Shown: in pieces, positions 9,137-39,796 of the stretch | How the letters are laid out: each line of letters opens with the position of its first letter | Position numbering within the stretch: the stretch's first letter is position 1 | Source of the DNA: Deltaproteobacteria bacterium | GTDB taxonomy: Bacteria; Myxococcota_A; UBA796; GCA-2862545 | Length of the DNA: 64,000 nt | Direction: 5' to 3' | NCBI GenBank assembly: GCA_006226595.1 | Contig: SBGP01000056.1 | Coordinates: 1 to 64,000, forward strand | Position numbers and translations under genes: made by a program | Notes under the pieces: generated by a model | The model's input: the letters and a program-made list of their open reading frames with translations, nothing else | Told to the model about the DNA's origin: nothing | Database searches by the model: none

Positions 9137-10390
9137 CTACTTGGCGACGAGCTCCAGGGCGACCTCTCCGGTGGTGGAGGGACGGAACTCGTAGGCTCCC
9201 TGCCCGTGCTCGTGGTGATCGAGGCCCTGCTCCTCCTCCTCGGCCGTCACCCGAAGGCCGAGGGTCGCCTTGATGGCTCGGAAGAGCAGCGCCGAGGACG
9301 GCACACAGAAGGCGGCGGTGGCGAGTACACCGACCAGCTGCGCCCCGAAGGACTTGTCCGCCGCGAAGATGCCGACGGCGAGGGTTCCCCAGATGCCGCA
9401 TACGAGGTGCACGGGCACCGCGCTCACGACGTCGTCGACGCCGATGCGGTCCATGCCCTTGGTGGCGAGCAGCGCGAGCACGCCACTGATGGCGCCGATG
9501 AGCACCGCGTCCATCGGACCGACGACGTCGGCACCGGCGGTGACGCCGACGAGACCGGCGAGCGCACCGTTGAGCGCCATGGACAGGTCCGGCTTCTTGT
9601 CGACGATCCAGGAGGTGATGGCGCCGGCCATGACACCCGCCGCCGCGGCGAGCGAGGTGGTGACGACGACCAGGCTCACGGCCGCGGGGTCCGCGGAGAG
9701 CACGGAGCCGCCGTTGAAGCCGTACCAGCCGAACCACAGCAGGAGCACGCCGATGGCGGCGAGCGGCAAGCTGTGGGGGTTGGCCTCACCGCGCTGCTTG
9801 GCGAGGCGCGGCCCGAGGATGATCACGCCGACGAGCGCGGCCCAGCCACCGACCGAGTGCACCAGGGTCGACCCGGCGAAGTCGTGGAAGCCGTACTCCT
9901 TGAGCCAGCCGCCGCCCCAGTGCCACATGCCGACGATGGGGTAGACGGTGGCGACGTAGATCGACGCGAAGGTCAGGAAGGACTCGAGCTTGATCCGCTC
10001 GGCCACCGCGCCGGACACGATGGTGGCGGCGGTGGCGGCGAACATCGCCTGGAAGATGAAGTCGGTCCAGTAGGTGTAGTGGCCCTCGGCGTAGCCGATG
10101 CCGAGGCCCGCGGCGTCCGTGGAGATGCCGAAGCCCGCGAAGCCGAAGAAGCCGCCGGCGTACTCCGCTCCCGGGTACATGAGGTTGAACCCGACCGCGG
10201 CGTAGGTCAGCAGGCCGATCGACAGAACCGTGAGGTTCTTGAACAGCACGTTCACGGTGTTCTTGGACTGGGCGAGCCCGCTCTCGAGCACGGCGAAACC
10301 GAGATGCATCACGAACACCAGGAAGGCGGCGACAAGCATCCAGATGTTGTTCACCCAGAACAGGACCTCGGCAGACGAGGGATCGGACAT
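9137..10390 (-). CDS. amt: Ammonium transporter Amt/AmtB
   Basis: A 417-aa polytopic inner-membrane ammonium channel with eleven expected helices. The twin pore histidines are kept: His178 in FAGSTLVHSVGG and His328 in VPVHLVCGIWG. Other family marks are A-V-L-E-S-G in helix I and W-F-G-W-Y-G-F-N-G-G. There is no long signal peptide. The C-terminal cytosolic tail carries a run of Glu and a H-H-E-H stretch; the GlnK-docking part looks conventional but a glnK gene is not adjacent. ATG with GGAGG upstream. A sigma54 promoter lies 29-43 bp upstream, and the divergent neighbour encodes a sigma54 activator, so expression is presumably nitrogen-controlled. Confidence 0.97.
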   Translation of the reverse strand: MSDPSSAEVLFWVNNIWMLVAAFLVFVMHLGFAVLESGLAQSKNTVNVLFKNLTVLSIGLLTYAAVGFNLMYPGAEYAGGFFGFAGFGISTDAAGLGIGYAEGHYTYWTDFIFQAMFAATAATIVSGAVAERIKLESFLTFASIYVATVYPIVGMWHWGGGWLKEYGFHDFAGSTLVHSVGGWAALVGVIILGPRLAKQRGEANPHSLPLAAIGVLLLWFGWYGFNGGSVLSADPAAVSLVVVTTSLAAAAGVMAGAITSWIVDKKPDLSMALNGALAGLVGVTAGADVVGPMDAVLIGAISGVLALLATKGMDRIGVDDVVSAVPVHLVCGIWGTLAVGIFAADKSFGAQLVGVLATAAFCVPSSALLFRAIKATLGLRVTAEEEEQGLDHHEHGQGAYEFRPSTTGEVALELVAK

Positions 10391-10418: not shown

Positions 10419-10433
10419 GCAAGAGGCGTGCCA
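10419..10433 (-). promoter_or_regulatory. Sigma54 (RpoN) promoter of amt
   Basis: Read on the minus strand this is TGGCAC-GCCTC-TTGC, which matches the -24/-12 consensus TGGCACG-N4-TTGC at every position except the base after TGGCAC being counted in the spacer. The -12 element ends 29 bp from the amt ATG, leaving a short leader. The placement fits dependence on the divergent activator. Confidence 0.82.
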
Positions 10434-10555
10434 GCCCCCTGCTCCATCGCGAGACACCCGACGGAAGCCCGCGTGGCAGCGTGGCTTTCTCTGCGTGAGG
10501 ACCGGCGACGAGGACCACTCGTCACGCGAGCGACACTGAACAGCGCCTCATTTCC

Positions 10556-10598
10556 GACATTTTTGTAGCCGCATGCCCCTGGGACGACATTTATGTTG
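10556..10598. promoter_or_regulatory. Tandem ACA-N4-TGT dyads, putative enhancer sites for amt
   Basis: Two related sites, GACATTTTTGTAG (10556-10568) and GACATTTATGTTG (10586-10598), have centres 30 bp apart, i.e. on the same helical face. They lie about 125-165 bp upstream of the amt sigma54 promoter, a normal distance for an activator enhancer. The motif is not the NifA site TGT-N10-ACA. Confidence 0.58.
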
Positions 10599-10688
10599 GA
10601 AATGCACATCGCAGGACCGAAAAGCCCGACCACGGGCTACTTTTCATCCATCGTGAAGCGACCTCACCGGATTTCATCACTCTACGAC

Positions 10689-10702
10689 CTACATTTATGT
10701 AG
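10689..10702. promoter_or_regulatory. Third ACA-N4-TGT dyad, 9 bp before the activator gene
   Basis: CTACATTTATGTAG is a perfect dyad (6-bp arms, 2-bp spacer) and the best copy of the motif seen in the tandem pair. It ends nine bases before the activator's ATG, overlapping the ribosome-binding region. Binding there would fit autorepression of the activator gene. Confidence 0.58.
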
Positions 10703-10711
10703 GATGCACCC

Positions 10712-12187
<1,476 letters not shown>

Positions 12188-12237: not shown

Positions 12238-14337
12238 GTGCAGAACCGCTGGGTCCACCCGCCGACCCTCCACATGCCGGGCAGTGGCCACCCACGACGC
12301 GTGGGATGGCTCGAGCTGTTCTACGACCTGATCTACGTCGCCACCATCCTGCAGCTCGGCACCACGCTGTCGGAGCGCGTGACCTTCGACGGCTTCCTCG
12401 CGTTCGCCGGGCTGTTCACCCCGCTGTGGTTGTCGTGGCGCAGCTTCACGCTGTACAGCAACCGCTTCGTCGTCGACGACCTGCGTCACCGAGCCATGGT
12501 GTTCACGCAGATGGCGGGCATCGGCATGATGGCGGTCACCGTGCCGCAGGTGCTCGAGGGCGAGCCGTCGGGCTTCGTCGCCGCGTATGGCCTCGTGCTC
12601 GTCATCCACTCGCTGTTCTACGTGCGCGTGTGGCGGACCGTGGACGAGGCCCGGGAGCTCGGGCAGCTCTACGCCTCGGTCCACGGCGTGCGGGCCGCGC
12701 TGTGGTGGGCTTCGCTGCTCGTACCCACCCCGTGGAACTACGCGATGTGGGTGCTCGCCGTCACCATCGGCATCGGCGCGACCTTCTCGCGCCAGGCCCG
12801 AGAGCTCGGCGGCCGCTTTCCCAACGACTTTATCCACCTCTCCGAGCGCTACGGCCTGCTGACGCTGATCGTGCTCGGCGAGTCGTTCATGAAGGTGCTC
12901 ACCGCCCTGTACGAGCAGGGGGTGGACTCCCAGAACGGACTGATGGCCGGCCTCGGACTGCTCGTCACCTGCGGCCTGTGGTGGCTGTACTTCGACGACA
13001 TCGCAGGCAGCCGGCTCAAGCGCACGCGACTCGCGTCCGTGGTGTGGACCTGGGCGCACCTGCCGCTGACCATCGGCATCACCGCCGTCGGTGTGTCGAT
13101 CAAGAAGGTCACCTTCTTCGAGCCCATGGAGCCGGCGAAGGCCGCGTACGGCTGGTTGTTCGCGGGCAGCGTGGCGCTGGTGTTCCTCACCGTCGGCGCG
13201 CTCGACAGCGTGACCGAGCGGCGGACCGGCGAGACCAGCGACCAGCAGCGCTCGCGGATGCGGCTGTTCTCGGCCCTGCTCGCCGGCCTGCTCGCCGCCG
13301 TCGCCCCGCAGATGAGCGCGCTCGTGTTCGTGTCGCTGATCGCCTTCCTGATGCTGGTGCAGGTGTTCTTCGACCTGTGGATGGCGCCTCTCGCCGACCC
13401 CGAGGCGGTGCACCACGAGGACCCGACCTTCTTCGCGGGTGCCCCCGCGTCCGCCGCCGCGCCCGAGCCCACCGCCAACCGCAAGCGGATGGCGATCAGC
13501 CTCGACCAGGCGGTGCGCAAGGGCGTGCCGAACGACCTGCGCAGCGACCTGTTCTACCTGTTCCTCGATCGGAGCTGGGGCGCGCTATTCACGGCGATGG
13601 TGGCCGCCTTCGTGCTCTCGAACGCGGTGTTCGCCGCCCTGTTCCTGCTCGAGCCCGAGGGCGTCACCGGCCTCGAGCGCGCGCAGTTCGTCGAGGCCTT
13701 CGCGTTCTCGGTCCAGACGATGACGACCATCGGCTACGGCGGGTTGTCCCCGGTGAGCACCTACGCGCACGTGCTCGTGTGGGTCGAGGCCTTCGCCGGC
13801 CTCGTCGGCACCGCCCTGTTCACGGGCCTCGCGCTCGCCAAGGCCGCACGCCCGAACATGAAGGCGCTGTTCAGCCGGGTGGCGGTGATTCGCCAGCTCG
13901 ACGGCAAGCGCACGCTGTGCTTCCGCGTGGGCAATGCTCGCGGAAACGAGATCGTCGAGGCCTCGATGAACGTCGCCGCGCTTGTCGACGTCGTCACCGA
14001 GGAGGGCGCCACCTTCCGTCGGCTGGTCGATCTGCCGCTGGTCCGTCGCTTCTCGCCCATGTTCGCCCTCACGTGGAGCGTGTTCCACGTCATCGACGAG
14101 GACAGTCCGCTCGCGCCGCTCACCGACGGCGAGATTCACGAGAGCCTCGCCGGCATCATCTGCACCATGACCGGCCACGACGGCACCTACGGCCAGACCG
14201 TGCACGCTCGCCACGTGTACCAGAGCGACGACATCCTCGATCAGCACGTGTTCGTCGACGTGATCAGCAGGCTGCCCGACGGTCGGCTCCAGGTCGACTT
14301 CACGCGCTTCCACGACGTCCGGCCGGAGACGGCGTGA
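12238..14337 (+). CDS. LtrA-KirBac fusion: low-temperature-requirement A domain plus inward-rectifier K+ channel
   Basis: One uninterrupted 699-aa frame with two membrane modules. Residues 20-390 match the LtrA family (PF06772): the W-L-E-L-F-Y-D-L motif at 24-31, LSERYGLLTLIVLGES at 201-216 and about ten hydrophobic helices. After a charged Ala/Pro linker (390-430), residues 435-540 form a two-helix pore with selectivity filter TTIGYGG (496-502). Residues 540-695 follow the KirBac cytoplasmic immunoglobulin-like domain (L-F-S-R-V-A-V-I, then F-R-V-G-N-A-R-G-N). The GTG start has AGGAG six bases upstream. The downstream gene overlaps by four bases. A K+ channel gated by, or coupled to, the LtrA part is inference; LtrA function is itself unclear. 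Confidence 0.85.
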   Translation: MQNRWVHPPTLHMPGSGHPRRVGWLELFYDLIYVATILQLGTTLSERVTFDGFLAFAGLFTPLWLSWRSFTLYSNRFVVDDLRHRAMVFTQMAGIGMMAVTVPQVLEGEPSGFVAAYGLVLVIHSLFYVRVWRTVDEARELGQLYASVHGVRAALWWASLLVPTPWNYAMWVLAVTIGIGATFSRQARELGGRFPNDFIHLSERYGLLTLIVLGESFMKVLTALYEQGVDSQNGLMAGLGLLVTCGLWWLYFDDIAGSRLKRTRLASVVWTWAHLPLTIGITAVGVSIKKVTFFEPMEPAKAAYGWLFAGSVALVFLTVGALDSVTERRTGETSDQQRSRMRLFSALLAGLLAAVAPQMSALVFVSLIAFLMLVQVFFDLWMAPLADPEAVHHEDPTFFAGAPASAAAPEPTANRKRMAISLDQAVRKGVPNDLRSDLFYLFLDRSWGALFTAMVAAFVLSNAVFAALFLLEPEGVTGLERAQFVEAFAFSVQTMTTIGYGGLSPVSTYAHVLVWVEAFAGLVGTALFTGLALAKAARPNMKALFSRVAVIRQLDGKRTLCFRVGNARGNEIVEASMNVAALVDVVTEEGATFRRLVDLPLVRRFSPMFALTWSVFHVIDEDSPLAPLTDGEIHESLAGIICTMTGHDGTYGQTVHARHVYQSDDILDQHVFVDVISRLPDGRLQVDFTRFHDVRPETA

Positions 14338-39746: not shown

Positions 39747-39796
39747 TGTGCATTGGTTGTATACCTATGCACAACCTTCCGTCAAGGGTGTGCACA
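39747..39796. promoter_or_regulatory. Putative CarH operator in the divergent crtL/crtC region
   Basis: A perfect 7-bp inverted repeat TGTGCAT-N13-ATGCACA (39747-39753 and 39767-39773) covers the crtL -10 region. A third half-site, the palindrome TGTGCACA, lies at 39789-39796, touching the crtC start. Similar half-sites placed over both divergent promoters are what a MerR-type repressor such as CarH would need. The link to CarH is inferred from gene context. Confidence 0.6.
39758..39785 (-). promoter_or_regulatory. Sigma70-type promoter of the crtL-crtE-crtB-carH operon
   Basis: On the minus strand TTGACG (39785-39780) and TATACA (39763-39758) are separated by 16 bp, with the transcript expected to start about 15 bases before the crtL ATG. 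The -10 element and spacer lie inside the putative CarH dyad. Confidence 0.65.

Follow-up and report, generated by a model that had tools for sequence, protein, structure and literature searches.

Which regulator reads the palindrome that lies between an ammonium transporter gene and the gene of a sigma54-type activator, and what does it control there? The question is raised by the window (the whole 64,000-nucleotide stretch of deltaproteobacterial DNA analysed here, G000:C85:1-64000), in which amt and the activator gene are divergent and are separated by an intergenic region of 321 bp that carries three copies of the palindrome. The parent genome, G000, consists of 7,231,518 bases in 117 contigs and is 97.08% complete; the G+C content of the intergenic region is 59%, compared with 70% for the window. 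Since related activators of many distant bacterial phyla have this palindrome beside their own genes for ammonium uptake and assimilation, it is very probably bound by a nitrogen regulator that has been overlooked.

Table 1. Features of the amt/activator locus, in window coordinates
Feature	Position	Strand	Evidence or remark
amt, ammonium transporter gene	9137..10390	-	TIGR00836 401.8 bits (cut-off 343.3); PF00909
amt sigma54 -24/-12 promoter element TGGCACGCCTCTTGC	10419..10433 (reads 10433-10419)	-	exact match
Promoter-proximal dyad of amt enhancer (predicted) GACATTTTTGTA	10556-10567	.	exact ACATTTWTGT; 122 bp from -24 element
Promoter-distal dyad of amt enhancer (predicted) GACATTTATGTT	10586-10597	.	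exact ACATTTWTGT; 152 bp beyond promoter element
Self-site (putative), perfect dyad CCTACATTTATGTAGG	10688-10703	.	exact ACATTTWTGT; 8 bp before activator ATG at 10712
Activator gene, GAF - sigma54-AAA+ - Fis-type HTH, 491 aa	10712..12187	+	PF01590, PF00158, PF02954

The activator contains a GAF domain (residues 24-153), a sigma54-interaction AAA+ domain (PF00158, 246.6 bits) and a Fis-type helix-turn-helix (HTH; PF02954, 33.1 bits). The GAFTGA loop is present in its translation, and no receiver domain was found in the domain search. An AAA+ domain with GAFTGA, a Fis-type HTH, a target promoter of the -24/-12 type and upstream sites together identify the protein as a sigma54 enhancer-binding protein (bEBP). 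The gene that follows (window positions 12238-14337, + strand) encodes an unusual fusion of an LtrA domain to an inward-rectifier potassium channel (PF06772, PF01007, PF17655; TIGYG filter).

The first-pass annotation had placed two phased dyads upstream of amt and a third, perfect one before the activator start, and its coordinates and sequences proved right on re-checking. In their longer form the three intergenic dyads read TCCGACATTTTTGTAGCC, GACGACATTTATGTTGGA and CCTACATTTATGTAGG; the two on the amt side are spaced by exactly 30 bp. The self-site is an exact TAC-N6-GTA, and the amt-side dyads differ from it in their outer bases (GAC...GTA and GAC...GTT). As to whether the motif is abundant at random positions genome-wide, at strict stringency it is not: the exact core ACATTTWTGT, sought on both strands, is present in three copies in the 7,231,518 bases, all of them in this intergenic region, and when one mismatch was allowed the total rose to 15, compared with 5 for the reversed pattern. 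The loose motif CTACATNNATGTAG, with up to two mismatches, gave 31 sites in the genome and its reversed control 27, which amounts to noise, and thus the strict form alone is informative. Across the window TACATNNATGTA with up to two mismatches was weakly enriched (4 seen against a mean of 1.4 expected, with equally many in 6 of 100 shuffles), and no wider regulon was visible in G000 by motif scans. The promoter of amt, previously described as near-perfect, is exact: TGGCACGCCTCTTGC fits TGGCACG-N4-TTGC without a mismatch and is alone in the 64-kb window in doing so. When up to two mismatches were allowed, 19 matches were seen against 25.2 expected, which is not above chance.

Conservation was explored in 15 draft genomes, comprising G000 and 14 relatives. 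The strict 14-mer TACATWWATGTAGG, with at most one mismatch, had matches in 8 of the 15 and none in the other 7, while its reversed control matched none of the 15; among the matches listed, the scan with the loose motif CTACATNNATGTAG had places in 3 of the 15. Matches to the 14-mer lie at the activator/amt or activator/glnII locus in G000, G001, G012, G014, G015, G042 and G094; in G012 they are beside the activator only, which there extends to the contig end, and in G037 they lie upstream of glnII, on a different contig from the activator. The consensus operator is TCCTACATNNATGTAGGA. In the common layout two dyads 30 bp apart are located upstream of the sigma54 promoter of amt, glnII or glnA, and another dyad often stands just before the activator start. 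The activator gene is divergent from amt in G000 and G001, and from glnII (type II glutamine synthetase) in G042. It precedes amt in tandem, with the pair between the two genes, in G014, G015, G020, G094, G121 and G256, the last of which represents another family and has self-site, pair and sigma54 element all over again. In G147 the activator gene is followed in tandem by glnA (type I), upstream of which lie a dyad pair and a sigma54 pattern. The amt gene of G275 is equipped with three dyads, two of them paired and the third perfect, and with a sigma54 element, and no activator was found near it in the 5-kb stretch.

The possibility that the motif would be missing upstream of orthologous amt genes, raised in the first-pass annotation, is not borne out. 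Dyads paired at exactly 30 bp (both at least 7/10) are present at 7 of the 23 amt genes of the 15 genomes, all seven of which adjoin an activator gene, and an eighth pair, in G007, was recognized by weighted score only. The pair is followed by a sigma54-pattern match in seven of these eight genes, the one in G015 being without it; the remaining 15 of the 23 amt genes, second paralogues included, have no dyad pair. A self-site, in some cases a variant as judged by eye, is close to the activator start in 9 of the 15 orthologous loci (L009, L010, L011, L012, L014, L015, L016, L019 and L022) and absent at the own activator gene in 5 (L013, L017, L018, L020 and L021), the fifteenth, L024, holding a partial gene without a start.

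Other nitrogen genes had been named as places at which the motif might recur, notably glnA, glnK and nif. In G000 this expectation failed: nifH scored below cut-off, P-II was not found, and the sole glutamine-synthetase match, a weak one of 48.8 bits on contig C40, is without a dyad. In the relatives it succeeded, as glnII and glnA are targets by their dyads. Among the 25 glutamine-synthetase matches in the 15 genomes, only the glnII genes of G037 and G042 have dyad pairs; single dyads lie near glnII of G046, with a sigma54 element, and of G020, without one, and 8/10 dyad matches are scattered over the glutamine-synthetase loci of three further genomes. In G037 and G046 amt was not detected, and the operators precede glnII, away from the activator gene (G037:C6:364456-364495; L243 of G046, positions 1052-1150). 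The pair pattern ACA-N4-TGT, N20, ACA-N4-TGT matched 44 of 377 genomes of the phylum, many of the matches being tandem repeats, and about 28 genomes matched the reversed control; pattern matches were used only if they lay beside an activator or nitrogen gene (G000, G001, G037, G042, G094, G147, G256 and G275).

Related activators in other phyla were collected by a scan with an HTH alignment, from which the best 80 of 429 relatives were taken; these loci were chosen by HTH likeness, have shared ancestry and include five repeat contigs already among the relatives, and the motif had first been refined on the relatives' loci. They are labelled Spirochaetota, Verrucomicrobiota, Kiritimatiellota, Lentisphaerota, Planctomycetota, Acidobacteriota, Thermodesulfobacteriota, Gemmatimonadota, Omnitrophota and unplaced bacteria. 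In a tree that comprised the 80 relatives, the activator of the window and four other bEBPs of G000, made by a quick method and with several long branches, those four separate from all the rest. Over the 816,380 bases of these loci, TACATNNATGTA at 9/10 or better was found upstream of the activator in 14 of the 80 and downstream in 15, compared with at most 3 and 4 loci, respectively, for 29 permutations of the half-site. Pairs at 8/10, counted over whole loci, numbered 17 at a spacing of 30 bp and 8 at 31 bp against 14 for the remaining spacings between 12 and 65 bp together, and the 29 permuted half-sites yielded at most 2 pairs at 30 bp and 1 at 31 bp. A sigma54 element lies 40-150 bp outward from 14 of the 25 pairs, compared with 43 of 3200 random positions. 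The loci of 22 other bEBPs contained no dyad at 9/10 or better and no pair.

At 8/10, an upstream site was seen in 34 of the 80 loci, a downstream site in 39, a pair in 21 and any of these in 55, although so loose a threshold will admit some single sites by chance. The other 25 loci had no motif at 8/10, among them all four of the Syntrophobacteraceae/Desulfarculales branch; this branch and several near relatives are without the motif, so either the sites have diverged or the proteins have another specificity. In a base table of 46 paired sites from 20 loci the C and G are invariant, the adjoining A and T are kept at 99% and the outer T and A at 85%, and the inner and flanking bases are weaker; since the sites were picked by the motif, it is the flanks, not the core, that form the independent part of this table. 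A self-site before the activator start also occurs in distant phyla, and in three acidobacterial loci (L177, L178 and L203) the self-site TCCTACATTTTTGTA is kept near the activator start and nitrogen genes are absent nearby. At least one amt, P-II or glutamine-synthetase gene was identified in 46 of the 80 loci (BLAST, E 1e-6: Amt in 40, P-II in 36, GSI in 18 and GSII in 5, the GSII labels of L168, L172, L195 and L197 resting on 28-31% identity and possibly denoting another glutamine-synthetase type). The operator is not particular to this organism: GAF-AAA-Fis activators that form a clade across many phyla share it.

Two arrangements within these loci deserve separate mention. In L168, L172 and L195 (Verrucomicrobiota/Kiritimatiellota), about 4 kb before the activator, there are 31-bp pairs that each stand 98 bp before a TGGCATG-type sigma54 element, pair and element being near a gene that weakly resembles glutamine synthetase. 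In L167, L193, L202, L209, L210 and L220 the activator reading frame runs into the first dyad of the downstream pair, and the offset (-6) is identical in all six.

How does the activator relate to characterized regulators? Its best NCBIfam model is nifA (TIGR01817), at 470.4 bits against a cut-off of 528.85, and the ntrC model TIGR01818 gave 349.2 bits, under its cut-off of 558.6; the closest solved sequence is 9qq6_C, a chain named Nif-specific regulatory protein. At glnA, ammonium assimilation is served by NtrC, which acts upstream of a sigma54 promoter from paired sites spaced by about three turns, an arrangement that the amt locus resembles. NtrC differs, however, in having a receiver domain where the activator has GAF, and in its dyad. 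NifA shares the GAF-AAA-Fis layout of the activator, but differs in its nitrogenase targets, in a curated score that the activator does not reach and in its TGT-N10-ACA site (PMC7294313). Within the window TGT-N10-ACA occurs once, at 39758 and far from the module, which upholds the earlier statement that the motif is not that of NifA. A search of G000 for nitrogenase genes by way of nifH-type matches found none over cut-off (best 25.5 bits). Thus, the activator is not NifA by curated score, site or targets, and is not NtrC by domain.

AnfA of Rhodobacter capsulatus has the consensus site TAC-N6-GTA and binds two such sites upstream of a sigma54 promoter, both being required for full activity (PMC7294313). 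The present locus resembles that system in its TAC-N6-GTA dyad, its two sites and their position in an intergenic region beside the activator gene; AnfA differs in its target, which is anfH and not amt or gln, and in the tandem order of anfA and anfH, while the bases TCC...AT-AT...GGA and the self-site found here go beyond the AnfA consensus quoted in that text. VnfA1 of Azotobacter vinelandii recognizes GT(T/A)C-N6-GTAC, with two similarly spaced motifs at most promoters and a suggestion of cooperative binding, but its targets are the vanadium nitrogenase and metal transport and its dyad has an extra G/C at the outer side (PMC9542535). The idea that a NifA-like activator has here a new specificity therefore needs qualification: the site does differ from that of NifA, but the perfect copy equals the AnfA consensus and is close to that of VnfA. 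By its predicted site the activator is of the AnfA/VnfA kind, and by its target a nitrogen-assimilation regulator. The predicted regulon of DVU1949 from Desulfovibrio vulgaris appears to be the closest published counterpart by description: DVU1949 is, like the activator, a one-component bEBP with GAFTGA, it has a predicted regulon of nitrogen metabolism and transport operons, and autoregulation is proposed (PMC4641369). It differs in its setting, sharing a transcript with a hypothetical gene, and in some genomes with iorAB, and not standing beside amt. No published account of a TACAT-N2-ATGTA operator at amt or gln genes was found in searches of an open-access library, the accessible text of PMC12316311 included.

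We consider it highly likely that the locus is a self-contained nitrogen-uptake switch, in which the activator works amt through the dyad pair and controls itself, probably as a repressor, through the third dyad. The one-component bEBP would bind the dyad TCC-TAC-N6-GTA-GGA as a dimer via its C-terminal Fis-type HTH. The amt-side dyads, which a spacing of three helical turns puts on one face of the DNA, would serve as the enhancer of divergent amt and seed an oligomer, and DNA looping would then allow the AAA+ ring to meet the sigma54 holoenzyme at the -24/-12 promoter, leading to opening under nitrogen shortage. The third and best dyad would limit synthesis of the activator itself. The two-site action of AnfA, in which both sites are needed, makes such a mechanism concrete (PMC7294313). 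The dyad sequences, their rarity, spacing and conservation, and their association with activator and nitrogen genes are observed; from these we infer the binding of the activator to the dyads, the activation of amt, the sign of autoregulation and the role of GAF as signal carrier.

The first-pass annotation had proposed that the same protein activates amt and autoregulates; the sigma54/bEBP module, the pair as enhancer and the third copy as a self-site are supported, but autoregulation is more likely to be repression than activation. It could be argued that the self-site activates the activator gene, since some bEBPs increase their own expression and the amt pair, which shares one intergenic region with the self-site, could act on the activator promoter too. 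Such positive autoregulation is unlikely, however, as the intergenic region has no sigma54 element directed at the activator gene, even when up to two mismatches are allowed, and the self-site, only 8 bp from the start codon, falls in the place expected of RNA polymerase or the ribosome. It is considerably less probable that a different regulator encoded elsewhere, such as a dimeric repressor, binds the dyads and controls both divergent genes while the activator uses other sites. Short perfect dyads over start regions are common among classical repressors, and binding by the activator is itself a prediction from sequence; the dyad, however, stays with the activator gene when its neighbours change and from phylum to phylum, and the pairs hold a spacing of 30-31 bp and are followed by sigma54 elements, a constancy that fits an enhancer-binding protein. 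An RNA hairpin in place of a DNA operator ahead of the activator start is highly improbable: the transcript could fold CCUAC-UUUA-type stem-loops over AGGA and so mask the ribosome-binding site, but the folding is no better than that of shuffles (z -0.46) and the same dyads lie upstream of sigma54 promoters, outside any leader.

The reading of the locus as a nitrogen-uptake switch leads to the signal. P-II (PF00543) was not found in the 97%-complete genome G000 at E 0.001, and a P-II match was absent in 9 of the 15 genomes (G000 and 8 others). Neither GlnD nor NtrC scored above cut-off in G000 or in any of the 15, all of which are drafts; the GlnD model also misses its cut-off in 12 of 14 control genomes, and thus the absence of GlnD alone says little. 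If P-II is truly absent, the simplest guess is that the GAF domain of the activator may sense nitrogen status directly. In Rhodopseudomonas palustris P-II proteins control AnfA, with the GAF domain potentially involved (PMC12093980). Tentatively, we propose a broader picture in which an unnamed stand-alone nitrogen regulator spanning phyla, whose operator code is TACAT-N2-ATGTA in pairs spaced by 30-31 bp, fills the role of NtrBC; in the lineage of the window, where P-II, GlnD and above-cut-off NtrC were not found, its GAF domain would read nitrogen status directly, in a P-II-independent one-component circuit for ammonium uptake.

This locus raises the question of how nitrogen is sensed in a bacterium without detectable P-II and GlnD. 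It also suggests that the use of AnfA/VnfA-type recognition (TAC-N6-GTA) extends far beyond nitrogen fixation, to the uptake and assimilation of ammonium. The operator code can be searched for in any genome, and may thus lead to nitrogen regulons in phyla with few characterized regulators, such as Spirochaetota, Verrucomicrobiota, Planctomycetota, Lentisphaerota and others.
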